Origin: Saccharopolyspora galaxeae
Lineage (GTDB): Bacteria; Actinomycetota; Actinomycetes; Mycobacteriales; Pseudonocardiaceae
Reading direction: 5' to 3'
DNA: 64,000 bases
NCBI RefSeq assembly: GCF_016526145.1
Contig: NZ_JADDUE010000003.1
Location: 62,001-126,000 of the forward strand
Shown: positions 41,348 through 58,995 of the stretch, piece after piece
How positions within the stretch are numbered: position 1 is the stretch's first letter
Layout: every line of letters begins with the position of its first letter
Notes under the pieces: model-generated
What the model was told of the DNA's origin: nothing
Seen by the model: the letters and a program-made list of their open reading frames with translations, nothing else
The model's database searches: none
Translations under genes and position numbers: made by a program

Positions 41348-41410
41348 GCGGTTTCCTCCCGGGAGAGCGGGCGCCGCGGCGGTGTGGCCGCGGCACGACG
41401 GGTCGAACCG

Positions 41411-41432: not shown

Positions 41433-41478
41433 TATCGGCCCGAACTGGGTCAAGAGCGCGCGCTTGGGATGTACGCTG

Positions 41479-41496
41479 ATATTCATCATCATGATT
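41479..41496. promoter_or_regulatory. Catabolic-island motif, site E (weaker)
   Basis: ATATTCATCATCATGATT contains the palindrome ATCATGAT, just before the GGAGGG ribosome-binding site of the thiolase. It fits only half of the shared motif, and its position would block initiation if bound. Confidence 0.3.
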
Positions 41497-41505
41497 GGAG
41501 GGCGT

Positions 41506-42666: not shown

Positions 42667-42714
42667 GCGCGGAACCGACGAACTCGGCGATGCGGCCGGG
42701 GGAGCAGGAGAACG

Positions 42715-43479: not shown

Positions 43480-43485
43480 CCGGCG

Positions 43486-43513
43486 CCGGCCCCCTGCGCG
43501 GGCAGGGGGCCGG
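43486..43513. terminator. Strong bidirectional terminator
   Basis: CCGGCCCCCTG (43486-43496) and CAGGGGGCCGG (43503-43513) form a perfect 11-bp stem with a 6-base loop, just after the SDR stop and facing the convergent enoyl-CoA hydratase. The remaining 43514-43673 has only low-complexity GCC/CCG-rich sequence. Confidence 0.75.
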
Positions 43514-43673
43514 TACTGCCGCGGCTGCGCCGGTGCCGCTGCGGTGCCTGCGCGCACCACCGGAGTTCGCGCGGCGGTCCGGTTCGCGGCGACTCTGGCT
43601 GCGACGCCTGCGGACACCGGGATCACTGCACCTGCGGCCGCCGAGGGCGCTGCGATGCCCGGCGCCGCCGGGA

Positions 43674-44441
43674 TCACTCCGGCGGCGGGAACCGCGGTCG
43701 CCGCTTCTCCAAGAACGACGTGGCGCCCTCGACCATGTCCGCGCTGCCCACCGCCTGCACCAGCATCCCGAGACCGTTGCTGAACGAGTCCCGCGCCGAG
43801 TTCCACCAGATGTTGGAGGAGATCTTGGTGATCTCCAGGTAGCGCGGGCTCAGCTCGGCCAGCTCCTCGACCCATCCGGTCACCGCCTCCGCCAGCCGGT
43901 CGTCCTCGACCACCTCGTTGACCAGGCCCAGGCTCTCGGCCTGTTCGGCGGAGTAGCGCCGGCACAGCATCGCCATCTCCTTGGCCCGCTTCTCCCCGAT
44001 CTGCACGCCGAGCACGTTGGTGGCGCCGGTGACCGGGGCGCTGCCGACCTTCGGCCCGGTCTGGCCGAACGTCGCCGAACGCGCCGCGATCGCCAGGTCG
44101 CAGGCCACGACGAGCTCGTTGCCGCCGCCCGCCGCCGCGCCGTTGACCGCGGCGATGACCGGGCGCGGGCATTGCCGCACGGCGTCGAACAACCGCAGCG
44201 AGCCCTGGTACAGCGCCCGCATCTCCCCGGTGGTCGGCGTGCTGAGCTGCTGCAACGATCCGCCTGCGCAGAAGCTGCCGCCGGATCCGGTCAGCACCAC
44301 CGCCCGCGCCTCATCGGCGCCGCGCAGCGCTTCGACGATCGCGTCGGACATGGCGGGATCGAAGGCGTTCTTGCGCTCCGGCCGGTTGAGCGTGAGCCAC
44401 AGCGCGTCCCCGCGCTGCTCGACCAGCACGTCCTCCCCCAT
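43674..44441 (-). CDS. Enoyl-CoA hydratase/isomerase family protein
   Basis: Crotonase-fold protein of 255 residues: VLVEQRGDALWLTLNRPERKNAFDPAMSDAIVEAL, VVLTGSGGSFCAGGSLQQL (oxyanion), VIAAVNGAAAGGGNELVVACDLAIAARSATFGQTGPKVGSAPVTGA and a C-terminus ATSFLEKRRPRFPPPE. The usual catalytic glutamates are not obvious, and the C-terminal FLEKRRPRF resembles MenB/BadI-type ring-forming or ring-opening members. Ring cleavage of a cyclic beta-keto-acyl-CoA is a reasonable guess. ATG 44441 overlaps the ferredoxin stop (TGATG). Confidence 0.83.
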   Translation of the reverse strand: MGEDVLVEQRGDALWLTLNRPERKNAFDPAMSDAIVEALRGADEARAVVLTGSGGSFCAGGSLQQLSTPTTGEMRALYQGSLRLFDAVRQCPRPVIAAVNGAAAGGGNELVVACDLAIAARSATFGQTGPKVGSAPVTGATNVLGVQIGEKRAKEMAMLCRRYSAEQAESLGLVNEVVEDDRLAEAVTGWVEELAELSPRYLEITKISSNIWWNSARDSFSNGLGMLVQAVGSADMVEGATSFLEKRRPRFPPPE

Positions 44442-44632
44442 CAGTCGACCGTGATCGCGCGCTCGGGGCAGGAGTCCGCGCCTTCGACGGCCTCGTCGGC
44501 GAACTCGGCCGGGACCTGTTCTTCGAGCACGTAGGCGGTGCCGTCCTCCTCGCGCAACGCGAAGACGTTCGGGGCGCTCATCTGGCACAGCCCGTGCCCC
44601 TGGCAGTGGTTCGGATCGACCCGCGCGCGCAT
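44441..44632 (-). CDS. 3Fe-4S ferredoxin (P450 partner)
   Basis: Small ferredoxin of 63 residues: Cys10, His13 and Cys16 (CQGHGLC), and Cys55 followed by Pro (SCPERAI). The second cysteine of the usual CxxCxxC set is His, the signature of [3Fe-4S] or modified [4Fe-4S] ferredoxins that serve actinobacterial cytochromes P450. It is divergent from the P450 at 44761 and upstream of an enoyl-CoA hydratase, so electron transfer from the reductase at 45987 through this protein to the P450 is likely. Confidence 0.9.
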   Translation of the reverse strand: MRARVDPNHCQGHGLCQMSAPNVFALREEDGTAYVLEEQVPAEFADEAVEGADSCPERAITVD

Positions 44633-44703
44633 GGTTTTTCCTCCTCGTCGAGGTGGCGCCGACTCCCCCCGGCTTCGTGCGAACCGTTGACAACCGGCAT
44701 ATC

Positions 44704-44722
44704 TAGTATAACCATTATCAGG
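44704..44722. promoter_or_regulatory. Catabolic-island motif, site F
   Basis: ATAACCATTAT (44708-44718) is an inverted repeat ATAA-CCA-TTAT; on the minus strand ATAATGGTTATAC fits the ATGRTWRT core. It lies between the divergent ferredoxin and P450 genes, 43 bases before the P450 ATG, whose AGGAGG is at 44745-44750. Confidence 0.5.
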
Positions 44723-44760
44723 TCAACAGCGGGGTTGATGCAATAGGAGGTCCCAGCAGC

Positions 44761-45990
44761 ATGGCTTCGCAACAGCGCTGTCCAGTGATCCGCTTCGATC
44801 ACAACTCCCAGGAGCACTCCGCGGACCCGGTCGCTTCCTACCGCGCCGTCCGCAACGAGCACGGACTCGCCTGGACCGAGTCGCACGGTGGCTACTGGGT
44901 GCTGTCCGACTACGAGAGCGTCTTCGAAGCCGCGCGGGACGACGGCGTGTTCTCCTCGGCGCGCACCTCCTCCGGAGGCGAGGGGCTGTCCGTGGTGATC
45001 CCGAAGACGCCCATGCACTTCCACATCCCGATTGAACTGGATCCACCGGATTTCCGGAAGTTCCGCAAGCTGATCAACCCGATCACCTCGCCCGCCGCGA
45101 TCGAGCGGATGCGCGGCATGGTCGAGCACCACGTCAGCAGTTTCATCGACGAGGTCATCGAGACCGGCGAGTGCGACTTCACCTCCGTGATCGGCGTTCC
45201 GTCGCTGGTCACCATCGACTGGCTGGGCCTGCCGGTCGAGGAGTGGCGCCGCTACTCGCGCGCGCACCACGCCACGCTGGCCGCCGTGCCCGGCAGCGAG
45301 AAGTGGCGCCAGGCCACCGAAGTGGACCTGCCCTACCTGTCCGAGCAGATGAGCCGGATCATCGAGCAGCGCCGCGCCGATCCGCAGGACGACGTGATCA
45401 GCTACCTGGTGCAGCAGACCGTGGACGACCGGCCGATCACCGACGACGAGGTCTTCGCCATCGTCGAGCTGCTCATCGCGGGCGGTACCGGGACCACCGC
45501 CTCGCTGGTGAGCCAGACGCTCGTCTGGCTGGCCGAGCACACCGACGTGCGGCAACGGCTGATCGAAGATCCGAGCCTGCTCGACCACGCCGTGGAGGAG
45601 TTCCTGCGCTACTTCTCCCCCACCCAGGCGCTGGCCCGCACCGTCGCGCAGGACACCGAGTTCCGCGGCTGCCCGATGCGGCAAGGCGACCGGGTGCTGC
45701 TTTCCTGGGCCTCGGCCAACCGGGACGAGTCGCTGTTCGAGCACCCGGACGAGATCGACATCGACCGCTGGCCGAACCGGCACACCGCCTTCGGCATCGG
45801 GGTGCACCGCTGCGCCGGCTCGCACCTGGGCCGGTTGATGGCCAAGACGCTGCTCAACGAGATCCTCACCCGGATGCCGGACTACACCGTCGATTTCGAC
45901 GCGCTGGAGCGCTATCCGCACCAGGGCACGAACATGGGCTTCCAGCGCATCCCGGCGCGGTTCACTCCCGGCCCGAAGCTCGCCCGGTGA
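44761..45990 (+). CDS. Cytochrome P450
   Basis: Soluble bacterial P450 of 409 residues. The I-helix AGGTGTTAS provides the oxygen-activating Gly/Thr pair; the K-helix has EEFLRYFSP, and the haem loop FGIGVHRCAGSHLG carries ligand Cys351. The N-terminus has no membrane anchor. ATG 44761 follows AGGAGG by 10 bases. It overlaps the reductase gene by 4 bases (GTGA) and faces the ferredoxin gene, giving a full class I electron-transfer set. It probably performs the first hydroxylation of the unknown substrate of the island. Confidence 0.93.
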   Translation: MASQQRCPVIRFDHNSQEHSADPVASYRAVRNEHGLAWTESHGGYWVLSDYESVFEAARDDGVFSSARTSSGGEGLSVVIPKTPMHFHIPIELDPPDFRKFRKLINPITSPAAIERMRGMVEHHVSSFIDEVIETGECDFTSVIGVPSLVTIDWLGLPVEEWRRYSRAHHATLAAVPGSEKWRQATEVDLPYLSEQMSRIIEQRRADPQDDVISYLVQQTVDDRPITDDEVFAIVELLIAGGTGTTASLVSQTLVWLAEHTDVRQRLIEDPSLLDHAVEEFLRYFSPTQALARTVAQDTEFRGCPMRQGDRVLLSWASANRDESLFEHPDEIDIDRWPNRHTAFGIGVHRCAGSHLGRLMAKTLLNEILTRMPDYTVDFDALERYPHQGTNMGFQRIPARFTPGPKLAR

Positions 45991-47138
45991 CCCGGGTCGT
46001 CATCGCCGGTGGGGGGCTGGCCGCGGCGCGCACCTGCGAATTGCTGCGGCGCAAGGGTTTCGACGGCGAGATCGTGCTGCTCGCGGCCGAGCGGCGGGCG
46101 CCCTACGACCGGCCGCCGCTGACCAAGGCGGCGTTGCGGGACGAGTTCGACCCCACGTTGCGGACCGACTACGAGGCGTTGTCGGTCGATCTCCGGCTGG
46201 GCGCAGCGGCTCGATCGCTGCATCCGGCGGAACGGGTGGTCGGTACCGATTCCGGCGACGTCGGCTACGACGCGCTGGTCATCGCCACCGGCGCGAGCCC
46301 GGTGCGGCTTCCCGGCGACGGTCCGCAGCTGGTCGTGCGCACCGCCGACGACGCGGCGCTGCTGCGGGAACGGCTGCGGGCGGGAGCGCGGGTCGTGCTG
46401 GTCGGCGCGAGCTGGATCAGTGCGGAAGTGGCCACCGCCGCACTGGCCCGGGGCTGCTCGGTGACCTGCGTGGAAGCGGCGCCGGTCCCGCTCGGTGCGC
46501 TGGGCGAGCAGGTCGGGCAGCGGATGCGGCCGTGGTGGGCGGAGGTCGACCTGCGGCTCGGCACCGGCGTCGACGCGGTCACCTCCGGCGGGGTGGCGCT
46601 GACCGGCGGCGGGCACCTGGACGCCGACGTGGTGGTCACCGGAGTCGGCGTGCGCCCGGACACGGCGTGGCTGGCTGGCTCCGGCGTCGAGCTGGACCGC
46701 GGCGTGCTCGTCGACGAGCACCTGCGCACCGGAGTTCCCGGGGTGTACGCGGTGGGCGACGTGGCGGCGCGCTGGTCGCCGCGCTCGGGCGCGCGGTTGC
46801 GGGTCGAGCACTGGGACGAGGCGCGCACCGCTCCGGAAACGGTGGTCGCGCAGATCCTCGGCACCGGCATTCCCGAGCACGATCCGGTCCCCTACTTCTG
46901 GAGCGACCAGTTCGGCCGCAAGCTCCAGTACGTCGGGCACCACAGCGCCGCCGACACGCTGGTGCTGCGCGGCGCGGACTCCGAGCGGTGGGGCGCCGCC
47001 TGGCTGTCCCCGCAAGGGCGGCTGACCGCGCACCTGGGCGTGAACCGGCCGAAGCAGCTGGTTCCGGCGCGCAACGCCATCGGCGCGGGAGCGACTCCCG
47101 ATCCGGAATCCCTGCGCGATCCCGAAAACCCGTTCTGA
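45987..47138 (+). CDS. Ferredoxin reductase, FAD/NAD(P)H type
   Basis: Pyridine-nucleotide-disulfide oxidoreductase-family flavoprotein of 383 residues: RVVIAGGGLAAARTCELLRRKGFDGEIVLLAAERRAPYDRPPLTK (FAD), LVIATGASP, RVVLVGASWISAEVATAALARGCSVTCVEA (NAD(P)H) and GVYAVGDVAA. This is the rubredoxin/putidaredoxin-reductase type that feeds P450 ferredoxins. One unusual point is GGGLAAAR in place of the common GGGxAG. GTG 45987 overlaps the P450 stop, so expression is coupled. Confidence 0.9.
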   Translation: MTRVVIAGGGLAAARTCELLRRKGFDGEIVLLAAERRAPYDRPPLTKAALRDEFDPTLRTDYEALSVDLRLGAAARSLHPAERVVGTDSGDVGYDALVIATGASPVRLPGDGPQLVVRTADDAALLRERLRAGARVVLVGASWISAEVATAALARGCSVTCVEAAPVPLGALGEQVGQRMRPWWAEVDLRLGTGVDAVTSGGVALTGGGHLDADVVVTGVGVRPDTAWLAGSGVELDRGVLVDEHLRTGVPGVYAVGDVAARWSPRSGARLRVEHWDEARTAPETVVAQILGTGIPEHDPVPYFWSDQFGRKLQYVGHHSAADTLVLRGADSERWGAAWLSPQGRLTAHLGVNRPKQLVPARNAIGAGATPDPESLRDPENPF

Positions 47139-47149
47139 GCAGGAGGAAC

Positions 47150-47920
47150 ATGGGCAGCGACGCACTCGCGGGCAAGGTCGCGGCGGTCACCGGAGCGGCG
47201 ATGGGCATGGGCGCGGCAACCGCCGAGCTGCTGGCGGCGCAAGGCGCGTCGGTGCTGGTCGCCGACCGCGAGCAACGCGCAGGTGAGTCCACGGTGGACA
47301 AGATCGTCGCCGGTGGCGGCCGGGCGTCGTTCCTGCGCGTCGACGTCGGCGACTCCGATCAGGTGCGCGCGATGGTCGAGACCGCGGTCGAGCGGTACGG
47401 GCGGCTGGACTGCGCGGTGAACAACGCCGCGGTCGCCCCGGACGCCAATACCGTCGCCGAGCTCGCCGAGGACGACCTGGACCGGATCCTGGCGGTGAAC
47501 CTGAAGTCCGTGGCGCTGTGCCTCAAGCACGAGATCAAGCAGATGCTGCGGCAGGACGGTCCCGGTTCGATCGTGAACATCGGCTCGGTGAACTCCTACC
47601 GGCCGCAGCTCAACCAGGCGATCTACACCGCGGCCAAGCACGGCGTGATCGGGCTGACCAAGGTCGCGTCGCTGGAGAACGCCGCGCGCGGCATCCGGGT
47701 CAACGCCGTCTGCCCCGGCGCGATCGACACGCCGATGATCCGGTACTCGATGGACAGCACCGGACGCCGCGAGCAGGACCTGGCGCCGCGGCTGAGCCTG
47801 TTCGGCCGGTTCGGGCGGCCGGAGGAGGTCGCCGCGGCCAGCCTGTGGCTGTGCTCGGACGATTCGTCGTTCGTGACCGGGCACGCGCTGGCCGCCGACG
47901 GCGGCTACCTGTCCAGCTGA
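47150..47920 (+). CDS. Short-chain dehydrogenase/reductase
   Basis: SDR of 256 residues with AAVTGAAMGMGAATAELLAAQGASVLVADRE, DCAVNNAAVAPDANTVAEL, IVNIGSVNSYRPQLNQAIYTAAKHGVIGLTKVASLE and RVNAVCPGAIDTPMI. The active-site Ser, Tyr and Lys are all present. ATG 47150 has AGGAGG upstream and follows the reductase by 11 bases. It probably oxidises the alcohol made by the P450. Confidence 0.88.
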   Translation: MGSDALAGKVAAVTGAAMGMGAATAELLAAQGASVLVADREQRAGESTVDKIVAGGGRASFLRVDVGDSDQVRAMVETAVERYGRLDCAVNNAAVAPDANTVAELAEDDLDRILAVNLKSVALCLKHEIKQMLRQDGPGSIVNIGSVNSYRPQLNQAIYTAAKHGVIGLTKVASLENAARGIRVNAVCPGAIDTPMIRYSMDSTGRREQDLAPRLSLFGRFGRPEEVAAASLWLCSDDSSFVTGHALAADGGYLSS

Positions 47921-48221: not shown

Positions 48222-48839
48222 ATGACGATGCGACGCACGTTGCTGGCAACTTCGATCATCGGCGCCGTGGCCGCAGGCACGGCACCGGCCGCAACCGCGA
48301 CACCGGACGCCGGGGCGCCCGTCGTCGGTCCGGCTTCGGTCGCCGCGCAGTCCGCGACGACCGATCTCGGCCCGCTGGTGGACCTCGCCGCGCAACGGCT
48401 GGCGCTGGCGGACGAGGTCGCCGCCGCCAAGTACGGCACCGGAAAACCCATCGCCGATCCGGAACGCGAGCGACGGGTGCTGGGCGAGGTGTCCGAGCTC
48501 GCCGCGGACAACGGACTCGATCCGGGCGTAGCCGTCCGCTTCTTCACCGACCAGATCGAAGCGGGCAAGGACGTGCAGCGCGGCCTGCACGCCCGGTGGG
48601 ACGCGCACCCCGAGTCGCGCCCGGGTGAACGCCCCGACCTGGGCCAGGTGCGCCGGGAGCTGGAACGGATCAGCGACGAGGCGGTGCGGCAGCTCAAGGC
48701 GACCGAGCGGGTGCGGGTGCCGAACACTCCGTGCCGGGTCGGGGTGGCGGCCTCGGTGCTCGCCGCCGACCTGCACCACCACTTCGACCCGCTGCACCGG
48801 CGAGCATTGGACAGGGCGGTGGTTTCGATGTGCGCGTGA
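48222..48839 (+). CDS. Secreted chorismate mutase (AroQ gamma type)
   Basis: Protein of 205 residues with a signal peptide (MTMRRTLLATSIIGAVAAG, then an AxA-like ATATP). The mature domain is all-helical: LVDLAAQRLALADEVAAAKYGTGKPIADPERERRVL matches the N-terminal AroQ helix, and the two cysteines near the C-terminus (TPCRVG and SMCA) match the disulfide in the M. tuberculosis secreted enzyme. It converts chorismate to prephenate outside the cytoplasm, for reasons unknown. ATG 48222 has GAGGGGAG upstream; the frame upstream is unrelated. Confidence 0.88.
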   Translation: MTMRRTLLATSIIGAVAAGTAPAATATPDAGAPVVGPASVAAQSATTDLGPLVDLAAQRLALADEVAAAKYGTGKPIADPERERRVLGEVSELAADNGLDPGVAVRFFTDQIEAGKDVQRGLHARWDAHPESRPGERPDLGQVRRELERISDEAVRQLKATERVRVPNTPCRVGVAASVLAADLHHHFDPLHRRALDRAVVSMCA

Positions 48840-48851
48840 GAACGGCGCGGT

Positions 48852-49295
48852 TCACCACTGGTACGGCAGGAACTTGCCGTCCAAGGTGACCACGACCCGG
48901 TCGCCCTGCGGGTCTTCGGCGCGACGGACGTCGAGCCGGAAGTTGATCGCGCTCATGATGCCGTCACCGAATTCCTCGTGGATCAGTTCCTTGATGGTCG
49001 GCCCGTACACCTGCAGCACCTCGTAGAGCCGGTACATCGTCGGGTCGGCGGGCACCTGCGCGTCCAGCGCGCCCCGAGTGGGCTGGACGCGCAGCGCGAG
49101 AGCGACCTCCCGGTCCAGTTCGAGCAACTCCGCGGCGGCGTTCGCCTCGGCCTCGCCCATCGGGTGCTGGCCGAGCAGCGCCGCCGTGGTCCAGGCGACC
49201 GGCCTGCCCACCGCCTCGGCCAGCTGCGCCCAGGTCAGGCCCAGTTCGGTCTTCTTCGACCGGACCGCGGCCGCGGCATCGTGCTTACTGATCAT
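48852..49295 (-). CDS. cynS: Cyanate hydratase (cyanase)
   Basis: Protein of 147 residues with an N-terminal helical DNA-binding-like domain and the catalytic C-terminal domain. Active-site residues align as Arg89, Glu92 and Ser115 in MYRLYEVLQVYGPTIKELIHEEFGDGIMSAINF. It catalyses bicarbonate-dependent decomposition of cyanate to ammonia and CO2. ATG 49295. It is convergent with the chorismate mutase gene, with only 12 bases between stops. No cyanate transporter or carbonic anhydrase is nearby. Confidence 0.93.
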   Translation of the reverse strand: MISKHDAAAAVRSKKTELGLTWAQLAEAVGRPVAWTTAALLGQHPMGEAEANAAAELLELDREVALALRVQPTRGALDAQVPADPTMYRLYEVLQVYGPTIKELIHEEFGDGIMSAINFRLDVRRAEDPQGDRVVVTLDGKFLPYQW

Positions 49296-49635: not shown

Positions 49636-52014
49636 GTGACTGAGCCGCGCCGCCTGCTGCTGGTCAGCGCCACCATCGGGGAAGGGCACAACGCCACCGC
49701 GCGAGCCGTCGAGGAGGCCGCCCGGCGATCGTGGCCGGGCTGCGAGGTGTCCTGGCTCGACGCACTGCGGGCGATGGGGCCTTGGGTGCCGCGAACGTTC
49801 GGCCGGATCTACGTGACCAACGTGCAGTCCACGCCATGGCTCTACGACTTCTTCTACGCCGCGCTGTGGCGGCAACGCTGGTTCGCCAACGGCTGCCGCC
49901 GCTTCGTCGGTGCCTGGGCGGGCCGCAGGCTGCGCCCGCTGCTGGCCGACGAACACCCGGACCTGATCGTGTCCACCTACCCCATGGGCACCGCCGGTCT
50001 GGCCTGGTTGCGCGCCCGCGGCGAACTGCGGACTCCGGTCGCGGCAGTCATCTCCGACTTCGCCCCGCACCCGTTCTGGGTCTACTCCGCGATCGACCGG
50101 CACTACGCCATGAGCGAGGTCAGCGCAGGGGCCGCCGATCTCGCCGAACCGGCGGCGGTCAACACCGTCAGCGCACCGCCCGTCGTCGCCGCGTTCCACC
50201 CGCGGGACAAGGCCGAAGCACGCCGCGCCTGCGGTCTCCCGCAGGCCGGTTTCGTGGTGCTGATCTCGTGCGGCTCACTGGGTTTCGGCTCCGTCGACCG
50301 CGCCGTCGAGGCAGCGCTGCGCGCCGGGACCGATCAGGTCGTGGTCGTGTGCGGGCACAACGACACCTTGCGCGAGCGGTTGCTGCGCCGTGCCGAGCGC
50401 GACTCCCGGATCGACCCGCTGGGCTGGGTCGACGACATGGCCACGCGCACCGCGGCGGCCGACGTCGTGGTGACCAATGCCGGGGGCGCCACCGCGCTGG
50501 AAGCACTCGCCTGCGCCCGCCCGGTCCTCATGTTCGAACCCATCGCCGGGCACGGCCGCGCCAACGCCGAGCTGATGGAACGCGCCGGTCTGGCCGAACT
50601 CTGCGACGACGAGCCCGCGCTGGCGCAGGCGCTGCACCGGCTCGCCACCGAGCCCGGCGAGCTGCACAACGCCGAGCAGCGGATGCTCCGGCACCTGCGG
50701 GACACCGGCGAGTTCGCCGACCAGGTGGCCGATATGGCGAACCTGGATCCCGCCGTGCCCGAGCGGATGCGCGCTCAGGACACGTTCTTCGTGCACGTCA
50801 CGACCCCGCAGGTTGCACAGCAGACCGGCGCCGTGTTGTCGCTGCGCGGACCGGCGGCCGGCGCGGAATGGGGCGCCGAGCTCGCCGCGCGGGTCAGCGA
50901 ACGGATCGCCGCCCGTGCGCCCGAACTGCCGATGGTCAGCAAGCGGCTGGTCACCCGCCGACACCGCGAACCGCACTGGGTGCCGGTCCGGCGACTCGCA
51001 CCTGAGCAGCACCTGCGGCGGATCACGCTCGGCGAGCACGACGATCAGGAGTCCGCGGAGCGCGAGTTCTTCAGCACGCCGTTGCCCACCGACCGCCCAC
51101 CATGGGAGATGGCCGTGCTGCACCGGCCCGGCTCCGGCGACTCGGCGCTGCTGGTGAAGATGCACCACTCGCTCGGCGACGGGTTGGTGATGACCTCGAC
51201 GCTGCTGCGGCTGCTGTGCGACGAGGTCCCCGATCTGCCGGAGCAGTCCCGGCCCGCGATTCCACGCCTGCGGTACGTCACGGCGGTGTTGCGCGGCATG
51301 CTGAGCCTGGTCACCGCAGGCCCGGCCCCGCGCGGCGGCCTCGGCGGACGCAGCACCGGAGCACGCCGCTTCGCCTGGAAAGAGCTCGACGCCGCCGAGG
51401 TCGAGGCCGAAGCCCGCGCGAACGGCGTATCCCGCAGCGCGTTGCTGCTCGGCATGGTGGCCGAAGCGCTGCACCGCTTGGACGAGAACAACACACACCA
51501 GCGGAACTTCCGCACCATGGTGCCCAGGAAGGCCCGTCCCGGCACCGAAGACTTCGGCAACCACGCGGTCGCGGTGACCGTCGACCTGCCCATCGGCCCC
51601 ATGTCCCCGCGGCGACGGCTCGCCGAAGTCGCCGCCCGGCTCGACCGCGCGCAGCACCGCGGGCAGCCGCAGGCCAGCGAAGCCGTGTTGCGGGGTCTGC
51701 GCCTGCTGCCCGCTCCGCTGCACCGCTGGGTCTGCCGCAGGATCTACGGACGCAACTTCTTCCAGGCGATCGTCTCGATCATGCCGGGGCACCGGACGCC
51801 GGTGCACATCGCCGGAGCGCTGCTGCGCACCGTGTACCCGGTCTTGCCGCTGGCCGATGGCATGGCGCTGGCGATCGGGACCATCGGGTGGGGAAGAACC
51901 GTCGGAGTCGCGCTCACCACCGACGCGGCGCTGCTGCCCGACGTGGACAAGCTCGCCGACCAGCTCCCGAGCGCCTTCGCCGCACTGCGGCTCGGCGCGC
52001 AGGAGGGCGCGTGA
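49636..52014 (+). CDS. Fusion of MGDG-synthase-like glycosyltransferase and WS/DGAT acyltransferase
   Basis: Protein of 792 residues in two domains. Residues 1 to about 370 are a GT-B glycosyltransferase like MGDG synthase/MurG: LLLVSATIGEGHNATARAVEEAAR (GEGH at 15-18), VAAVISDFAPHPFW, and a GT28 donor site NAGGATALEALACARPVLMFEPIAGHGRANAELM from residue 281. Residues about 380-792 are a wax-ester synthase/DGAT-type acyltransferase with catalytic HHSLGDG (His510, His511, Asp515), plus NHAVAVTVDLPIGPMSPRRRLAEVAARL. It would glycosylate a lipid and then acylate it. GTG 49636 has GGAAGGAG upstream. It heads an operon with a DMT transporter and an SDR, coupled by GTGA and ATGA overlaps. Confidence 0.9.
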   Translation: MTEPRRLLLVSATIGEGHNATARAVEEAARRSWPGCEVSWLDALRAMGPWVPRTFGRIYVTNVQSTPWLYDFFYAALWRQRWFANGCRRFVGAWAGRRLRPLLADEHPDLIVSTYPMGTAGLAWLRARGELRTPVAAVISDFAPHPFWVYSAIDRHYAMSEVSAGAADLAEPAAVNTVSAPPVVAAFHPRDKAEARRACGLPQAGFVVLISCGSLGFGSVDRAVEAALRAGTDQVVVVCGHNDTLRERLLRRAERDSRIDPLGWVDDMATRTAAADVVVTNAGGATALEALACARPVLMFEPIAGHGRANAELMERAGLAELCDDEPALAQALHRLATEPGELHNAEQRMLRHLRDTGEFADQVADMANLDPAVPERMRAQDTFFVHVTTPQVAQQTGAVLSLRGPAAGAEWGAELAARVSERIAARAPELPMVSKRLVTRRHREPHWVPVRRLAPEQHLRRITLGEHDDQESAEREFFSTPLPTDRPPWEMAVLHRPGSGDSALLVKMHHSLGDGLVMTSTLLRLLCDEVPDLPEQSRPAIPRLRYVTAVLRGMLSLVTAGPAPRGGLGGRSTGARRFAWKELDAAEVEAEARANGVSRSALLLGMVAEALHRLDENNTHQRNFRTMVPRKARPGTEDFGNHAVAVTVDLPIGPMSPRRRLAEVAARLDRAQHRGQPQASEAVLRGLRLLPAPLHRWVCRRIYGRNFFQAIVSIMPGHRTPVHIAGALLRTVYPVLPLADGMALAIGTIGWGRTVGVALTTDAALLPDVDKLADQLPSAFAALRLGAQEGA

Positions 52015-52913
52015 CCTCCACCGGGAGCCAGTTGTTCATCGCGGTGCCCGCCGCGCTGGCGGGCGCCGCCGGGTTCGGGCTGGCCAGCGCCGTGCAGCAA
52101 CGCGCGACCAAGCAGGTGCCCACCACCCGCACGCTGGATCCCCGGCTGCTGTGGCAACTGGTGCGCAAACCGATCTGGCTGCTGAGCATCGGCACCGTGA
52201 TCGTCGGGCTGTCCTTGCAGGTCGTGGCGCTCGCGTTCGGTCCGCTGGTGCTGGTGCAGCCGCTGCTGGTCACCGCGGTGCTGTTCGGCGCGGTCTTCGC
52301 GGCCTGGATGGCGCACCGCCGGTTGGACCGGGTCCTGGTGCTCGGCGCGCTCGCGGTCGCCGTCGGGTTGGCGGTGTTCCTGCTGCTGGCGCGGCCGAGC
52401 GGGCAAGGTGAGGGGTTCACCGGCTCCGGAGTGTTCCCGCTCGCGGCGGTGCTGGTGCTGATCGTGCTGGGTTGCCTGCTCGCCGCCGGGCGGTTCCGCG
52501 GTGAGCTCCGGGTGCTGGCGCTGGCCCTGGCGACAGGCGTGCTCTACGGCGTCACCGCCGGATTGATCAAGGTCGTGGCCGGGCAGATCCGGCAGGGCGG
52601 CCTCGCCGAACCGTTCGGCCACCCCACCCTCTACGTCGTGTGCGCGCTGGGGCCGGTGGGGTTCCTGCTCAGCCAGAACACCTTCCAGCAGGGCCGGTTC
52701 ATCTCCCCGGCACTGGCGGTGATCACCGCGGTCGATCCGCTGGTGGGCATCGCGATCGGGGTGAACTGGCTCGGCGAGCGGGTCGTGGCGAGCCCGTACG
52801 CACTGGCAGGTGAAGTGCTCGCGGCGGTGCTGCTGCTGGTCGGCATCTGGGTGCTGACCCGGCGCGGCGAGCACCTGCGCCGGATCGCGGCCCGGAATTC
52901 CGGGTCCGGATGA
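52011..52913 (+). CDS. DMT-family multi-pass membrane protein
   Basis: Protein of 300 residues with about nine or ten hydrophobic helices (e.g. FIAVPAALAGAAGFGLASAVQQRATKQ, WLLSIGTVIVGLSLQVVALAFGPLVLVQPLLVTAVLFGAVFAAWM, VIVLGCLLAAGRFRGELRVLALALATGVLYGVTAGLIK). The SAVQQRATKQ and GPLVLVQPLLVTAVLF segments resemble the DMT/EamA group of actinobacterial transporters. GTG 52011 overlaps the stop of the glycosyltransferase fusion, and its own stop overlaps the next ATG. It may flip or export the glycolipid made by the fusion protein; this is inferred from position. Confidence 0.82.
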   Translation: MTSTGSQLFIAVPAALAGAAGFGLASAVQQRATKQVPTTRTLDPRLLWQLVRKPIWLLSIGTVIVGLSLQVVALAFGPLVLVQPLLVTAVLFGAVFAAWMAHRRLDRVLVLGALAVAVGLAVFLLLARPSGQGEGFTGSGVFPLAAVLVLIVLGCLLAAGRFRGELRVLALALATGVLYGVTAGLIKVVAGQIRQGGLAEPFGHPTLYVVCALGPVGFLLSQNTFQQGRFISPALAVITAVDPLVGIAIGVNWLGERVVASPYALAGEVLAAVLLLVGIWVLTRRGEHLRRIAARNSGSG

Positions 52914-53629
52914 GGTGGCCTCCGCGGCGCGCCCTGATCACCGGGGGTTCCTCGGGCATCGGAGCGGCGCTGGCGATCGAGCTGGCCGCCGCCGGGTGCG
53001 AGCCGCTGCTGGTGGGGCGCGACGCCGACCGGCTCGGCGCGCTGGCGCGCCGCACCGGTGGCCGCCCGCTGCGCGCCGACCTGACCGTTCGGGACGAGCT
53101 GGCCCGGGTCGCCGATGCGGCCGCCGGAGTCGAGCTGCTGATCAACAACGCCGGGGCGGGCTGGCATGGCCCGCTGGGCGCGATGACCGCCGGGCAGGTC
53201 AGCGACCTGGTAGCGCTGAACCTGACCGCTCCGATGGAGCTGACCAGGGCCGCGATGCCGGAACTGAGCCATCGCGGCGGGCAGGTCGCGTTCGTCTCGT
53301 CCATCGCGGCCGTCGGCGTGCACCACGAGGCCGCCTACGCGGCGACGAAGGCCGGGCTGCGGGCGTTCGCCGACAGCATCCGCGCCGAGGGCGTGCCGGT
53401 CACCACCGTGCTGCCGGGCGCGGTGCGCACCGGCTTCTTCGACCGGCGCGGCGCGTACACCCGCCGGTTCCCGCGCCCGATCCCGCCGGATCAGGTGGCC
53501 CGCGTGCTGCTGACCGCCATCGAGCGGGAAACGCCGGAGGTGTTCGTGCCGTCCTGGCTGGGCCTGGCTTCGCGGGTGCGCGGCGCCCTGCCGGGAACCT
53601 TCCGCTTGCTCGCGCGCCGCTTCGGCTGA
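52910..53629 (+). CDS. Short-chain dehydrogenase/reductase
   Basis: SDR of 239 residues: RALITGGSSGIGAALAIELAAAGCEPLLVGRDADRL, LLINNAGAGWHGPLGAMT, VSSIAAVGVHHEAAYAATKAGLRAFADSIRAEGVPVTTVLPGAVRTGFF. The C-terminus has a helical tail (PSWLGLASRVRGALPGTFRLLARRFG) like that of membrane-associated lipid-active SDRs. ATG 52910 overlaps the transporter stop. It is the third gene of the glycolipid operon and may reduce a keto-lipid or oxidise a long-chain alcohol. Confidence 0.87.
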   Translation: MRWPPRRALITGGSSGIGAALAIELAAAGCEPLLVGRDADRLGALARRTGGRPLRADLTVRDELARVADAAAGVELLINNAGAGWHGPLGAMTAGQVSDLVALNLTAPMELTRAAMPELSHRGGQVAFVSSIAAVGVHHEAAYAATKAGLRAFADSIRAEGVPVTTVLPGAVRTGFFDRRGAYTRRFPRPIPPDQVARVLLTAIERETPEVFVPSWLGLASRVRGALPGTFRLLARRFG

Positions 53630-53680: not shown

Positions 53681-54340
53681 TCAGGCGGGCACGGCCTTGC
53701 GGGAGAAGCGCAAGGTGATCCCCTCGCCGTGCAGCTCCCGGCGCAGCCACCACACCGACGCCACCGCGGCCACCGCCACGAGGCTGAACGAGCCCGCCGT
53801 GCTGGCCAGCAGGAAGTGCCCGATCGTCGCCTGCGCCAGCGCCCACAGCGTGGTGAACCCGTTGATCGTGAACACCAGCGCCCACAGCAGCGACACCCGC
53901 CGGAAGAACCTCTGCACCCGCGCGTTGCCGATCAGCGACGGTGGAAGCACGCAGAAGTCGTCGGCGAGCTTGGCGATCAACGTCCGCTCGAACAGCAGCG
54001 AACCCAGGAACAACAACGCCACGAAGAAGTTCTGCAAGCTCGGTTCCAGGAAGTACAGGAATGAGCTGCCGGTCGCGAACCCGACGACGGTGCGGACCAC
54101 CAGGATCCCGGTGGTCAGCAGCAGCACCATCGGGATCTTCACCCGCAATACCGCTCGCACCGCGACGGCGCCCACTCCCCAGACGAGCGCGGCGATGAGA
54201 CCGCCGGTCAGGCCGGTGAGGTTGAACAGGACATAGAACAGCGCAAGCGGCGCGATCACCGTCTCGCCGAGGTGTTTGGCCGCGTGCCAGAGGTGCGCGG
54301 AAAGCGCGTCGAGGTGAATCACCTGCGAGGGCTTCTGCAT
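53681..54340 (-). CDS. VC0807-family multi-pass membrane protein
   Basis: Protein of 219 residues with six hydrophobic helices: APLALFYVLFNLTGLTGGLIAALVWGVGAVAVRAVL, IPMVLLLTTGILVVRTVVGFATGSSFLYFLEPSLQNFFVALLFLGSLLFERTLIAKLADDFCVLPPSL, then FRRVSLLWALVFTINGFTTLWALAQATIGHFLLASTAGSF. This pattern matches the VC0807/septation-protein-A-like family of unknown function. A basic C-terminal tail faces the cytosol. It is upstream of the hopanoid genes on the same strand but separated from hpnH by about 80 bases, so membership of that operon is uncertain. Confidence 0.75.
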   Translation of the reverse strand: MQKPSQVIHLDALSAHLWHAAKHLGETVIAPLALFYVLFNLTGLTGGLIAALVWGVGAVAVRAVLRVKIPMVLLLTTGILVVRTVVGFATGSSFLYFLEPSLQNFFVALLFLGSLLFERTLIAKLADDFCVLPPSLIGNARVQRFFRRVSLLWALVFTINGFTTLWALAQATIGHFLLASTAGSFSLVAVAAVASVWWLRRELHGEGITLRFSRKAVPA

Positions 54341-54423: not shown

Positions 54424-55425
54424 TCACCCGCGCAGCGCCCGTATGGACTCGCGCAGTGAACCCATCGTGGCCATCACGGCCGTCGGCTCGTAGCCGCAGT
54501 GCGCCATGCAATTGGCGCAGCGCGAGTCGCGCCCGCGACCGTAAGCCTCCCAGTCCGTCTCCTCCAACAGCTCCCGGTAGCTCTGCGCGTAGCCGTCGGC
54601 CATCAGGTAGCAGGGCCGCTGCCAGCCATATAGCGAGTAGGACGGGATGGCCCACGCGGTGCAGCCGAAGTCGACCTTGCCCTCCAGGAAGTCCAGGAAC
54701 TTCGGCGAGTGGTTGAACCGCCACTTGCGGCGCCTGCCATCGGCGAAAACCTTCTTGAACAGCTCCCGGGTCTCGGTGACGCCGAGGAAGTGGTCCTGGT
54801 CCGGCGCCTTGTCGTAGGCGTAGGCGGGCGAGAGCATCATCTGGTCCACGTCGAGCTCGTTGTTGAGGTAGTCCAGCACCTCGATCACCGAGGACGGCGT
54901 GTCGGTGCTGAAGAACGTGCTGTTCGTGGTGATCCGGAACCCGCGCTGCTGCGCGTCCTTGATGTTGTCGACCGCTTGCGCGAACACGCCCTCCTTGCAC
55001 ACCGAGGCGTCGTGGCGCTCTTGCAGCCCGTCGACGTGCACCGCCCACGAGAAGTACGGGGACGGCGTGAACTTGTCGATCTTGCGCGGCATCAGCAGCG
55101 CGTTGGTGCACAGGTAGACGAACTTCTTGCGCTTGACCAGCTCGTCGACCAGCACCTCGATCTCGGGGTGCATCAGCGGCTCGCCGCCTGCGATGGAGAC
55201 CACCGGGGCACCGCATTCCTCGACCGCGGCCAGCGCCCGGTCGACCGGCATCCGCTGCTTGAGGACGCTCGCCGGGTGCTGGATCTTGCCGCACCCCGCG
55301 CAGGCGAGGTTGCAGGCGAACAACGGCTCCAGCTCCAGGGTGAGCGCGAACTTCTTCCGGCCCGCGAGCTTCTGCCGCACTAGGTAGGCGCCGACGCGAG
55401 CGGCCTGGCGCATCGGAATGCCCAT
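54424..55425 (-). CDS. hpnH: Hopanoid radical SAM protein HpnH (adenosylhopane synthase)
   Basis: Radical SAM enzyme of 333 residues. The iron-sulfur motif is ACNLACAGC (CxxxCxxC) in EPLFACNLACAGCGKIQHPASVL, followed by GGEPLMHPEIEVL and a C-terminal cysteine pattern DSRCANCMAHCGYEPTAVM of a SPASM-like extension (DUF3463). It adds the adenosyl radical to diploptene to form adenosylhopane, starting the extended side chain. ATG 55425 has GGAGGTGCA upstream. It follows hpnG and completes the hopanoid operon. Confidence 0.93.
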   Translation of the reverse strand: MGIPMRQAARVGAYLVRQKLAGRKKFALTLELEPLFACNLACAGCGKIQHPASVLKQRMPVDRALAAVEECGAPVVSIAGGEPLMHPEIEVLVDELVKRKKFVYLCTNALLMPRKIDKFTPSPYFSWAVHVDGLQERHDASVCKEGVFAQAVDNIKDAQQRGFRITTNSTFFSTDTPSSVIEVLDYLNNELDVDQMMLSPAYAYDKAPDQDHFLGVTETRELFKKVFADGRRRKWRFNHSPKFLDFLEGKVDFGCTAWAIPSYSLYGWQRPCYLMADGYAQSYRELLEETDWEAYGRGRDSRCANCMAHCGYEPTAVMATMGSLRESIRALRG

Positions 55426-55460: not shown

Positions 55461-56063
55461 TCAGTCCCGGTGCGCCACCGCGGGCGCGCGTTCCGGGTCG
55501 GCCGCCCACTCCGCCACCGCGGGTGTGAGGCGGCGCAGCCGTAGCAGCGCCCGGCACGCGCGGTACGGCGTGCGCGGGCGCAGCAGCGGCTCGCTCGGGG
55601 TGTCCACGACCACGCGCACGACCGCGCGCAGTCCGCGTCCGGCCAGCCGGGCGAGCGCGGCCGATTCCATATCGACGGCCAGCGCGCCGGTAGCGGCCAG
55701 CGCCGACTTCTCGCCGCCGCCGACGATGTGGTCGGTCGTCGTGATCGGCCCGCGCCACACCGCGAATCCGGCGCGGTCGAGCCGAGCCGCCAACGATCCC
55801 GCGTCCGGCAGGGTCGTGCTGCCGTGCGCATCCCGGACCTCGTCGGCGACGACCACACCGCCGCTGGGTACTTCACCCAGCCCGCCCGCGAGACCGACTA
55901 CGGCCAGCGCGCCGCAGCCGGCCACCGCGTCGGCGTTGCGGCGCCGGGAGCTCCGGCGCGGCCCGAGCCCGGTGCGCAGCACGCGCGCCCGGTCGCACGC
56001 GCCGCGCAATGCCACGGCTTCGGTTCGCAGCGCAGCGCAGATCAGCAGCCGATCACCGCTCAC
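55461..56063 (-). CDS. hpnG: Hopanoid-associated phosphorylase HpnG
   Basis: Purine-nucleoside-phosphorylase-like protein of 200 residues: LLICAALRTEAVALRG, AVVGLAGGLGEVPSGGVVVADEVRDAHG, TTTDHIVGGGEKSALAATGALAVDMESAALARLA with the DMES motif of nucleosidases. HpnG removes adenine from adenosylhopane to give ribosylhopane. GTG 56063 overlaps the shc stop (GTGA). It lies between squalene-hopene cyclase and HpnH. Confidence 0.9.
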   Translation of the reverse strand: MSGDRLLICAALRTEAVALRGACDRARVLRTGLGPRRSSRRRNADAVAGCGALAVVGLAGGLGEVPSGGVVVADEVRDAHGSTTLPDAGSLAARLDRAGFAVWRGPITTTDHIVGGGEKSALAATGALAVDMESAALARLAGRGLRAVVRVVVDTPSEPLLRPRTPYRACRALLRLRRLTPAVAEWAADPERAPAVAHRD

Positions 56064-57988
56064 CGGTTCACCGCCTGCTCGTAGCGGCCGAGCGCGGTCA
56101 GCGGGAAGATCAGCCGGTACAGGTGGTAGTTGATGAAGAAGTCGCCCGGGAATCCGGTTCCGGTGAACTGCGGCTCGTCCCAGGTGCCGTCCGCGCGCTG
56201 GCTCGTGGCCAGGTATTCCACGCCGTTGCGCACCGCTTCGCTGGCGTGCCTGCCCAGCGCCAGCAACGCCATCAGCGCCCATCCGGTCTGCGAGGCGGTC
56301 GAGGTGCCCACCCCGATCCACCGCGCATCGGTGTAGGAACGCATGTCCTCTCCCCAGCCGCCGTCGGCGTTCTGGTGCTCCTCCAGCCAATCCGCCGCCC
56401 GCCGCAGCGCCGGGTGGTTGGCGGGCACCCCGGCGGCGACCAGCGCGGGCACGACCGCGCCCGTGCCGTAAACGTGGTTGGCGCCCCAGCGGCCGAACCA
56501 CGAGCCGCCGCGCTCCTGGTTCGCCAGCAGCCACCGCACGCCCGCGCGCACCGCGGGATCCTCGCGGTCGGCGAGCAAGCTCATCGCTTCCACGACGTGC
56601 GCGGTGACGTCCGCTGAGGGCGGGTCGATCACTTCCCCGAAGTCGCAGAACGGCAGCCGGGTAGCAAGCCTGCTGGTGTTGTCCGCGTCGAACGCTGCCC
56701 AGCCACCGTCTCGGGACTGCATGCCGCGCATCCAGGCCAGCCCGCGTTCGATGGCCGCGTGCACCTCCTGCGGTCTGCCGTGCTCGACCCGGTTGAGCGC
56801 GAGCACCGCTTCGGCGGTGTCGTCGATGTCGGGATAGCCGTCGTTGTCGAACTCGAACGCCCACCCGCTCGGAGCGAGCCCGGGCCTGCGCACCGCCCAG
56901 TCACCGGGCACCCGGATCTCCTCGCGCAACAGGTAATCGGTCGCGCACCGCAGCGACGGGTGGTCGGCGGGCAAACCGGCGTCGTGCAGCGCCTGCACGG
57001 TCAGCACGGTGTCCCACACCGGTGATTGGCACGCCTCCATCCGGCGGCTCGTGCCCTGCGGAGTGCGTTCCCGGATGAGGAAGCCCTCCAACCCGGCCAA
57101 GCCCTCCCGCAGCACCGGGTGTTCCAGCGGGTAGTCGAGCAGGTGCAGCGCCAGCAGCGAGTACACCCAAGGGGGCTGGATGCCGCCCCACGAGCCGTCG
57201 GCCTCCTGCCGGGCGATGATCCACTCCGCAGCGAGTCGCATCGCGTGCCGCCGCACCGTCTTCAGCGGGTACCGCTGATACCGGTGCAACACCGCGTCGA
57301 GCGCGCGGAACGCCCGGTCCCAAGGGTCGGAGGAGCGCTGCGGCGTCCGCCCGGAGCGCAGCTCGCGCACGCTCACCCCGAGTTCCCTCCGGGGTGCAAG
57401 CGTGCACACGATGGTCAGCGGCACGACGGTCTGGCGCGCCCAGCAACCCCAGTTCGCCAGGTTGAGCGGCGCCCACTTCGGCAGCAGCACGACTTCCGGC
57501 GGCATCGCGGGCAGCTCGTCCCACGACCATTCGCCGAACAGCGCCAGCCAGATCCGGGTGAACACGCGGGTCGATTCGAGGCCGCCGTGCGCCAGGATCC
57601 AGGCTCGCGCGAGGGTCATGTGCGGGGCTTCGACGTCGTCGCCTGCGAGTTTGAGCGCGACGTACGCCTCGACCGTGGTGGAGAGGTCGCCGGGCCCGCC
57701 GTGGAAGTTCGCCCAGGTGCCGTCTTCGCGCTGCTGCGAACGGATCCAGCGCGCCGCCTGCGCGGTCTCCTCCGGCGTGCGGATGCCGAGGAACTGGCGC
57801 ATCAGCAGATCCTCGACGTCCATGGTCACGTTCGTCGCCAACTCCCCCTTCCACCAGCCGTCGGTGTGCTGCAACGACAAGAGGTGATCCCGGGCGGCGA
57901 GCAGCGCGCCGTGCGCCCTGGCGCCTACCGCGGGCAGGTCCGGCTGGGTCTGCTGCTGCTGGGATCGGGTCAGTTGGTCGGTCACCAT
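56060..57988 (-). CDS. shc: Squalene-hopene cyclase
   Basis: Protein of 642 residues, the usual length. The catalytic DxDD motif is YPDIDDTAEAV (Asp387, Asp389, Asp390), and multiple QW repeats occur (e.g. QEADGSWGGIQPPWVYS, QERGGSWFGRWG, QNADGGWGEDM, QRADGTWDEPQFTGTGFPGDFFINYHLY). It protonates squalene to form the pentacyclic hopene/hopanol, acting on the inner face of the membrane. ATG 57988 has CGGAGG upstream, and the gene start overlaps the stop of the prenyl synthase gene. Confidence 0.95.
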   Translation of the reverse strand: MVTDQLTRSQQQQTQPDLPAVGARAHGALLAARDHLLSLQHTDGWWKGELATNVTMDVEDLLMRQFLGIRTPEETAQAARWIRSQQREDGTWANFHGGPGDLSTTVEAYVALKLAGDDVEAPHMTLARAWILAHGGLESTRVFTRIWLALFGEWSWDELPAMPPEVVLLPKWAPLNLANWGCWARQTVVPLTIVCTLAPRRELGVSVRELRSGRTPQRSSDPWDRAFRALDAVLHRYQRYPLKTVRRHAMRLAAEWIIARQEADGSWGGIQPPWVYSLLALHLLDYPLEHPVLREGLAGLEGFLIRERTPQGTSRRMEACQSPVWDTVLTVQALHDAGLPADHPSLRCATDYLLREEIRVPGDWAVRRPGLAPSGWAFEFDNDGYPDIDDTAEAVLALNRVEHGRPQEVHAAIERGLAWMRGMQSRDGGWAAFDADNTSRLATRLPFCDFGEVIDPPSADVTAHVVEAMSLLADREDPAVRAGVRWLLANQERGGSWFGRWGANHVYGTGAVVPALVAAGVPANHPALRRAADWLEEHQNADGGWGEDMRSYTDARWIGVGTSTASQTGWALMALLALGRHASEAVRNGVEYLATSQRADGTWDEPQFTGTGFPGDFFINYHLYRLIFPLTALGRYEQAVNR

Positions 57989-58995
57989 TGCCTCCGCACG
58001 ATGAACTCCGCGAGTTCGGTCAGGGATTCGACGGCCGCGCTGTGCCGGCCGCAGGCGTGCAGTTGCGCGAGCGCGGCGTCGAACCTGCGCTCGCACTCGG
58101 ATTCGGCCCACTCCCGGGAGCCGGCCTGGCGCACCAGTTCGGCGGCGTGCTCGGCGCGTTCGCCGACGAGCCGCGCGGGTTCGCGGTAGATCCGGCGCAG
58201 CCGCTCGCCCGCCGGGGTCGCCGAGCTCAGGGCGTGCACGATCGGCGCGGTCTTCTTGCGCGCCCGCAGGTCGGAGAGCACCGGTTTGCCGGTCGTCTCC
58301 GGATCGCCCCACAGCCCCAGCAGGTCGTCGACCAACTGGAAGGCCATGCCCAGCTCGATGCCGAACGAGCGCATCCGCGCCACGGCGTCTTCGTCTCCCC
58401 CGGCGCACAGCGCCCCCAGCGAGCACGCGCAGCCGAGCAGCGCCGCGGTCTTGCCTTCGACCATGCGCAGGCACTCGTCCAGCGCCACTTCGTGCCGGTG
58501 CTCGAAGCCGAGGTCGGCGGCTTGGCCGACGATGAGCCTGCTGGTCGCCGCGCCGAGCATCCGCACCGCTTCCGCCGCGTGCGCGGAAGGCGTGTCCACC
58601 AGCACGTCGGTGGCCAGCGACAGCAGCGCGTCCCCCGCCAGCAGCGCGGAGGGCCGGCCGAACACGGTCCAAGCGGTGGGCCGGTGCCGCCGGGACGTGT
58701 CGTCGTCCATCAAGTCGTCGTGCAGCAGCGAGAAGTTGTGCACGAGCTCGATGGCCGCGCCCGCGCGCGTCGGCCAGTGCCCGGGGCCGCCGATGGCCTG
58801 CGCGGACAGCAGCACCAGCGCCGGGCGAAGCGCCTTGCCGGTGCGCCCGTCCGGAGAACCGTCGGCGTGCACCCAGCCGAGGTGATATTCGCAGACCCGC
58901 CGGGTGTGCTCGTCGAGCCTGCCGACCGCGGCCCGCAGCTGCGGTTCGACCTGCTGGCGCGAGGTGCTCAGCACGCTGGGTGTCGCCGTGGTCAT
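57982..58995 (-). CDS. Trans-isoprenyl diphosphate synthase (probable farnesyl diphosphate synthase)
   Basis: Protein of 337 residues with both Asp-rich motifs: first in LLHDDLMDDD and second in FQLVDDLLGLWGD, and GKALRPALVLLSAQ at the substrate-binding site. It condenses IPP with DMAPP or GPP. In a hopanoid operon, FPP for squalene is the expected product, although the chain length is set by residues not judged here (alternatively GGPP). ATG 58995 overlaps the hpnE stop by 4 bases. Confidence 0.9.
   Translation of the reverse strand: MTTATPSVLSTSRQQVEPQLRAAVGRLDEHTRRVCEYHLGWVHADGSPDGRTGKALRPALVLLSAQAIGGPGHWPTRAGAAIELVHNFSLLHDDLMDDDTSRRHRPTAWTVFGRPSALLAGDALLSLATDVLVDTPSAHAAEAVRMLGAATSRLIVGQAADLGFEHRHEVALDECLRMVEGKTAALLGCACSLGALCAGGDEDAVARMRSFGIELGMAFQLVDDLLGLWGDPETTGKPVLSDLRARKKTAPIVHALSSATPAGERLRRIYREPARLVGERAEHAAELVRQAGSREWAESECERRFDAALAQLHACGRHSAAVESLTELAEFIVRRQW

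Follow-up and report, generated by a model that had tools for sequence, protein, structure and literature searches.

A 64,000-nucleotide stretch of the Saccharopolyspora galaxeae genome (assembly GCF_016526145.1, contig NZ_JADDUE010000003.1, positions 62,001 to 126,000; hereafter the window) carries a gene in which a glycosyltransferase (GT) is fused to an acyltransferase (AT) of the wax ester synthase/diacylglycerol acyltransferase (WS/DGAT) type, followed by genes for a DMT-family membrane protein and a short-chain dehydrogenase/reductase (SDR). It is proposed here, with a probability of roughly 0.6, that in these actinomycetes this operon forms the tailoring branch of the hopanoid pathway, in which the SDR would make bacteriohopanetetrol (BHT) and the fusion would glycosylate and acylate it. 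Hopanoids, which correspond in bacteria to sterols, are the origin of molecular fossils that are very abundant, and BHT holds a central place among them. In the established pathway, HpnH converts diploptene to adenosylhopane, from which the putative phosphorylase HpnG makes ribosylhopane, and ribosylhopane is turned into aminobacteriohopanetriol by HpnO, or into BHT by an enzyme not yet established (Geobiology 2025, PMC12583986). For this last step, the SDR described below offers a specific candidate whose phylogenetic distribution is sharply defined.

The fusion gene and its operon

The operon and the gene that follows it comprise these features, by window position.

49636 to 52014, forward strand: GT-AT fusion gene, 792 amino acids (aa), GTG start, an open frame with Pfam domains
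49636 to 50745, forward strand: GT-B half, like monogalactosyldiacylglycerol (MGDG) synthase and UgtP (family GT28; PF06925, PF04101; PDB 9wde and 4wyi by profile, 4x1t and 4wyi by fold)
50761 to 52011, forward strand: WS/DGAT acyltransferase half (PF03007, PF06974; PDB 6chj, 7nxg)
51163 to 51183, forward strand: HHSLGDG acyltransferase active-site motif (aa 510-516)
52011 to 52913, forward strand: DMT-family membrane transporter, 300 aa (NF038012, over its cut-off)
52910 to 53629, forward strand: classical SDR, 239 aa (PF00106), proposed as a BHT-forming ribosylhopane reductase
53681 to 54340, reverse strand: VC0807-family membrane protein (NF041646, over its cut-off)

The fusion frame is free of stops, and its start codon is preceded by GGAAGGAG, which resembles a ribosome-binding site. 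Four Pfam domains are found along it: MGDG_synth (aa 18-161, 68.4 bits against a cut-off of 25), Glyco_tran_28_C (aa 207-342, 41.2 against 22), WS_DGAT_cat (aa 378-582, 63.2 against 23.6) and WS_DGAT_C (aa 641-784, 73 against 20.7). A GxGH loop and an NxGGxxxxE motif are hallmarks of the GT28/MGDG-synthase family, and the corresponding residues (G15, G17, H18 in the loop; N281, G283, G284 and E289 in the donor site) are invariant in all 76 rows of an alignment, which represent 73 distinct sequences. In the same alignment, H511, D515 and G516 of the acyltransferase motif are present in 76 rows and H510 in 75, so that both active sites are kept. An AlphaFold2 model computed with 32 fused sequences as input reached a mean pLDDT of 91.6 and a pTM of 0.88. 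When this model was searched with Foldseek, the WS/DGAT structures 6chj and 7nxg ranked first, and the MGD1 structures 4x1t and 4wyi were within the top twelve. Profile comparison matched aa 1-372 to 4wyi and aa 370-790 to 6chj and 7nxg; the match of aa 91-359 was to the processive diacylglycerol glucosyltransferase 9wde.

A search for related loci returned 79, from which L111 (26% GT identity, no HpnH) was dropped. The fused gene was called in 66 of the remaining 78 (L033-L110), with L070 counted as unfused, the gene caller having picked an antisense frame there. By record name, the fused loci belong to Pseudonocardiales, Micromonosporales, Propionibacteriales, Micrococcales, Frankiales, Nanopelagicales and Streptosporangiales, the last three represented by metagenome bins only. 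A frameshift or assembly artefact joining two genes was considered and rejected; a frameshift is very unlikely because so many of these loci carry the fused gene. The gene after the fusion is a co-directional DMT gene in 42 of the 66 fused loci and an SDR gene in 13, and the median gap to the next gene on the same strand is -4 bp (58 cases). Direct adjacency to the fusion, the SDR or the VC0807 gene was counted for a DMT gene in 51 of the 66 loci, and adjacency to the fusion, DMT, HpnH or VC0807 gene for an SDR gene in 60. On a looser count, accepting any similar gene in the locus, the figures are 63 for DMT and 61 for SDR. The VC0807-family protein also recurs near the fusion (22/66).

Much of the first-pass annotation, made from the letters of the window alone, is borne out by these data. 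The fusion it reported is real, being one uninterrupted frame with all four domains over curated cut-offs, and GEGH at 15-18, NAGGATALEA(L) from 281 and HHSLGDG at 510-516 lie where it had placed them. It had suggested a profile search of the second half, in which the WS_DGAT profile was indeed found. The GTGA overlap that it described between fusion and DMT genes exists, as does the overlap of DMT and SDR genes, which is four bases by coordinates (52011-52913 and 52910-53629). It had further reasoned that a local artefact would be indicated if the two domains were always separate genes in homologues; they are fused in 66 of 78 loci across several actinomycete orders.

The two halves of the fusion were placed by quick tree searches with midpoint roots. 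In the AT tree, 32 fused rows and one further protein (L141, entered twice, also as L020) make up one starred set, and seven other WS/DGATs, including the second copy of the host genome (L001), fall outside it. The GT tree likewise unites the 32 fused rows in one starred set. Nested inside this set are six GT-only Amycolatopsis genes, best read as cases of later loss of the AT half; all 15 other GTs sampled, mostly from genomes without HpnH, lie outside. Two variants were seen among the relatives. The L141 protein (6889-8466) is a WS/DGAT of the fused clade whose N-terminus resembles a shrunken GT remnant, with no Pfam GT match, and its gene is placed between a 299-aa gene and an SDR gene adjoining HpnH. 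In L161 (10727-14247), a divergent standalone GT of 360 aa lies right beside the fused gene. Among the best-ranked matches listed for broad queries of the open-access literature, neither the fusion nor a ribosylhopane reductase was described.

Linkage of the fusion to hopanoid genes

A hopanoid operon occupies 54 to 62 kb of the window, convergent to the fusion/DMT/SDR operon.

54424 to 55425, reverse strand: HpnH, adenosylhopane synthase, radical SAM (TIGR03470, 520.6 bits against a cut-off of 225)
55461 to 56063, reverse strand: HpnG-like phosphorylase, called from operon position and TIGR03468 (E 1.3e-17)
56060 to 57988, reverse strand: squalene-hopene cyclase, SHC (TIGR01507, over its cut-off)
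57982 to 58974, reverse strand: polyprenyl diphosphate synthase (best model NF041169)
58992 to 60365, reverse strand: HpnE (TIGR03467, over its cut-off)
60362 to 61228, reverse strand: HpnD (TIGR03465, over its cut-off)
61222 to 62034, reverse strand: HpnC (TIGR03464, over its cut-off)

This operon is the key context of the fusion and was overlooked in the first-pass annotation. As far as the sequence can tell, the suggestion made there of a pathway devoted to an acylated glycolipid, with possible export, holds. That annotation had left the acceptor open and taken enzymes of glycerolipid and wax synthesis as its models; genomic linkage points to hopanoids instead, and makes the SDR the more important of the neighbours.

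Among 59 genomes of relatives, the fusion was found in 14. HpnH was present in all 14 of these, against 6 of the 45 without it (Fisher p 2.9e-9), and no more than 10 kb separates the two genes in any of the 14, a pattern that rejects a chance neighbourhood. All p-values given here are indicative only, because thresholds were set post hoc, some of the searched genomes also contributed to the SDR profile, and related genomes do not count as independent samples; the thresholds themselves (GT at least 219 bits, AT at least 323 bits, SDR E <= 1e-73) were chosen after score gaps had been inspected, with lower rows dropped. In five of the six HpnH-positive relatives without a fusion (G028, G030, G046, G056, G059), a relative of the GT or the AT lies within 10 kb of HpnH. 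A draw of 393 genomes from the class contained HpnH in 88 and a full-length fusion in two (G000, G247), with HpnH nearby in both.

The related loci give a similar picture, with hopanoid labels in their flanks assigned from BLAST matches to the window genes. HpnH or SHC lies within the examined flank in 46 of the 66 fused loci, and HpnH is encoded elsewhere in the genome in all nine that have no hopanoid gene in view, so that 55 of the 66 are tied to HpnH or SHC. Taken with 11 GT-only or truncated loci, these nine belong to genomes that are all HpnH-positive (20/20), and the genome of the distant GT locus L111 lacks HpnH. Every fusion genome tested for HpnH contained it.

Two observations concern other genes of these clusters. 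The prenyl synthase of the window scores just short of the NCBIfam model for a family 2 encapsulin cargo polyprenyl transferase (431.6 bits against a cut-off of 450). A PucR-type regulator recurs between HpnC and the fusion, or between HpnC and the PAP2-AT gene described below; PF13556 was found in the L142 copy (14679-15893), and the other copies (389-453 aa, beside HpnC) were called from size and position alone.

The SDR as a candidate BHT-forming reductase

A profile was built from 27 SDRs neighbouring hopanoid clusters, in which S131, Y143 and K147 are invariant and T11, G12, G16 and G18 occur in at least 90% of rows (TGxxxGxG and S-YxxxK, the residues of classical SDRs). At least 11 of the 27 rows come from genomes that were also searched (L141, L144-L146, L150, L151, L154, L162, L167-L169), as apparently do three more (L033, L059, L071). 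The search covered 80 HpnH-positive genomes, namely 20 relatives, all 47 genomes of the class draw outside family f31 and 13 of the 40 f31 genomes (the other 27 were outside the SDR and HpnO searches), together with 67 HpnH-negative controls (39 relatives and 28 class genomes), which lean to the window's own order. A single hit at E <= 1e-73 was obtained in 70 of the 80 HpnH-positive genomes, with next-best hits from 7e-57, and none in the 67 controls. The best control hit (3.6e-66) is a partial gene in a genome that is 74% complete and is possibly a true orthologue; the next come from two f28 genomes (6e-66 and 3e-63). The SDR gene is on the HpnH contig in 56 of the 70 genomes and within 20 kb of HpnH in 53, and it is convergent to HpnH in fusion-free lineages as well. 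In many f30 genomes (e.g. G132, G141), two HpnH genes are present, far apart or on different contigs; where contigs permit measuring, the distance from the SDR to one of the two is about 10-14 kb.

The distribution of the SDR was compared with that of HpnO, the aminotransferase that competes for ribosylhopane, using as query the 461-aa HpnH neighbour of L159, taken as HpnO from its position and aminotransferase-like sequence. With this one protein at E <= 1e-100, a search that distant forms could escape, HpnO was found in 20 of the 80 HpnH-positive genomes: 59 have the SDR only, nine HpnO only, 11 both and one neither (p 6e-6). Nine of the ten genomes without the SDR therefore have HpnO, and the tenth, which has neither, is fragmented. 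The two are not mutually exclusive, because 11 genomes hold both. A different arrangement is found in f31, a family guessed from gene content to be Streptomyces-like: among the 13 genomes sampled, all five with the SDR have a divergent GT gene 285-556 bp from it, away from HpnH, and all eight without the SDR lack such a GT at E <= 1e-40 (p 7.8e-4 for the pairing). In three of the five, SDR and HpnH are 0.24 to 5.7 Mb apart on the same contig, and in two they are on different contigs.

Other reductases were considered for the same step. HpnA, a hopanoid protein of SDR type known from proteobacteria, was rejected, its model (TIGR03466) being over cut-off in none of the 80 HpnH-positive actinomycete genomes, with weaker hits at E <= 1e-40 in 28. 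An aldo/keto reductase (AKR) encoded at 62676-63722 was set aside as well: no relative was found in 118 loci at a BLAST E of 1e-6, of which only 47 show a gene beyond HpnC, the place of the AKR in the window.

Proposed pathway and alternatives

In the proposed pathway, HpnH and HpnG make ribosylhopane, as already known, and the SDR would use NAD(P)H to reduce the open-chain aldehyde form of ribosylhopane, giving BHT. The GT half would then transfer a sugar from a nucleotide sugar to BHT, as MGDG synthase and UgtP do to diacylglycerol, and the WS/DGAT half would take a fatty acid from acyl-CoA and attach it by an ester bond to the glycosyl product, with the sugar as the most likely site, yielding an acyl-glycosyl hopanoid that the DMT protein might carry across the membrane. 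That the operon serves hopanoid biosynthesis is very probable from its genomic setting. The SDR is probably the BHT-forming reductase of actinomycetes, because its catalytic residues are intact, it follows HpnH, and nine of ten HpnH-positive genomes without it have HpnO. The balance leans slightly towards the fusion glycosylating and acylating a hopanoid, and a role of the DMT protein as flippase for the product is a doubtful suggestion.

A number of observations weigh against this proposal. The linkage evidence is strong, and the chemistry is inferred throughout. The fusion falls under the equivalog cut-off of PRK13609, a diglucosyl-diacylglycerol synthase (138.4 against 500 bits), and under that of the acyl_WS_DGAT subfamily TIGR02946 (193.2 against 309.95 bits), so that by these NCBIfam models it would be of the same kinds, yet outside their membership. 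The HpnG of the window is under its own cut-off (64 against 187 bits). Eleven of the 66 fused loci (L048, L050, L065, L073, L079, L083-L086, L089, L090), which lay outside the HpnH search, show the squalene-making HpnC/D/E only, and nine have no hopanoid gene in view. Most sampled HpnH-positive genomes are without the fusion, which therefore would be a tailoring rather than a core enzyme. GT hits of at least 219 bits occur in 40 of the 80 HpnH-positive genomes, but in only 29 do they lie within 20 kb of HpnH or the SDR, and AT hits of at least 323 bits in 24, of which 20 are within 20 kb of HpnH; part of the wider GT and AT families is thus without this linkage. The SDR is on a different contig from HpnH in 14 of 70 genomes and far from it in three (f31), it occurs together with HpnO in 11 of 80 and both are missing from one, and the solved structures closest to it are of a general sort (FabG, ribitol dehydrogenase and others), from which no substrate can be identified.

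Other functions were weighed as well. The fusion could make an ordinary acylated glycosyl-diacylglycerol or glycolipid and lie next to the hopanoid operon since both serve membrane remodelling. The nearest characterised GT relatives (PRK13609, PDB 9wde, 4wyi) use diacylglycerol, and WS/DGAT enzymes are known for neutral lipids. Such a function is nevertheless improbable given that HpnH accompanies the fusion in 14 of 14 relatives, nine of nine loci with nothing in view and both class-draw genomes, leaving 11 of 66 loci outside the search, and given that all 15 other GTs and the seven other WS/DGATs fall outside the respective fused clades. It is also conceivable that the AT half esterifies the hopanoid polyol itself, with the GT half serving a different molecule or time, as five clusters pair a WS/DGAT near HpnH with a PAP2 domain (L142, L145, L147, L148) or an apparent GT remnant (L141) in place of a GT. 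This is considered unlikely because the covalent linkage of both active sites is conserved across the fused clade, which suggests a shared substrate or sequential steps.

The step assigned to the SDR can be questioned separately. A different reductase might form BHT, and the SDR might act later or elsewhere, perhaps once the product has been glycosylated or acylated; its co-occurrence with HpnO in 11 genomes and its pairing with a GT instead of HpnH in five f31 genomes would fit such a role. However, in many of the HpnH-positive genomes that hold the SDR, neither GT nor AT reaches the thresholds used in the vicinity of HpnH, and the SDR therefore seems independent of both; the nearby AKR, moreover, has no relative in the loci compared. 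A later-acting SDR is regarded as somewhat unlikely, and the assignment of the SDR to BHT formation is retained.

Other arrangements near hopanoid genes

Beside the hopanoid genes of four genomes, a WS/DGAT is fused to a PAP2_3 domain (L142:15894-17855, L145:15345-17336, L147:11873-13936, L148:3936-5942), which we take to be AUR1-like. The joining of a WS/DGAT to a head-group enzyme is therefore a repeated theme. In clusters L151-L153 and L168, a GT of the wider family adjoins a gene encoding 260-314 aa. In L151 this gene, beside a hopanoid-linked GT, is a polysaccharide deacetylase, and the L168 copy looks like one too. The pairing of a GT with a polysaccharide deacetylase recalls HpnI and HpnK. 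In a broader scheme, put forward tentatively and at slightly less than even odds, actinomycetes make BHT with a dedicated HpnH-linked SDR, and many of them turn BHT into an acyl-glycosyl hopanoid by means of one two-headed enzyme, which arose by a single fusion and then spread across several orders; in other lineages, a PAP2-type head-group transferase takes the place of the GT on an acyltransferase of the same kind.

Upstream of the operon, the window contains genes for a thiolase, an enoyl-CoA hydratase, a ferredoxin, a P450, a ferredoxin reductase and three SDRs (40574-47920), which have the look of a catabolic cluster. A chorismate mutase type II domain protein is encoded at 48378-49295; the upstream part of its frame resembles a secretion signal, and the gene adjoins a cyanase gene on the opposite strand.

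Implications and comparison with known systems

From the fusion, Saccharopolyspora, Micromonospora and Amycolatopsis are predicted to contain acylated glycosyl hopanoids, which routine methods could miss. If the proposal is true, geochemists gain genes to link with acyl-glycosyl hopanoid conjugates.

Like MGDG synthase and UgtP, the GT half has a GT-B fold, the MGDG_synth and Glyco_tran_28_C domains and the GxGH and GGxxxxE motifs; unlike them, it is fused to an acyltransferase, is linked to hopanoid genes and scores under the PRK13609 cut-off. The AT half shares WS_DGAT_cat, WS_DGAT_C, the HHxxxDG motif and the fold of 6chj and 7nxg with WS/DGATs of the AtfA type, but the fusion is under the TIGR02946 cut-off and groups in one clade that excludes the seven other WS/DGATs in the sample. 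A cell-free reduction of ribosylhopane to BHT was reportedly described by Bodlenner and colleagues in 2015; it is the same conversion as that proposed for the SDR, in Methylobacterium and not in an actinomycete. HpnI belongs to a GT family other than GT28, whereas the GT described here is of GT28. According to the pathway paper, HpnI makes BHT-N-acetylglucosamine from BHT, and the HpnI/HpnK/HpnJ route leads on to the glucosamine and the cyclitol ether, so that there too a gene of a hopanoid cluster glycosylates BHT (PMC12583986). A known product of the proposed kind is the acylglucosaminyl-BHT of Alicyclobacillus acidocaldarius, in which BHT likewise bears a sugar that is acylated; the acyl group is N-linked there, and an O-acyl ester would be expected here from a WS/DGAT (PMC8537080).

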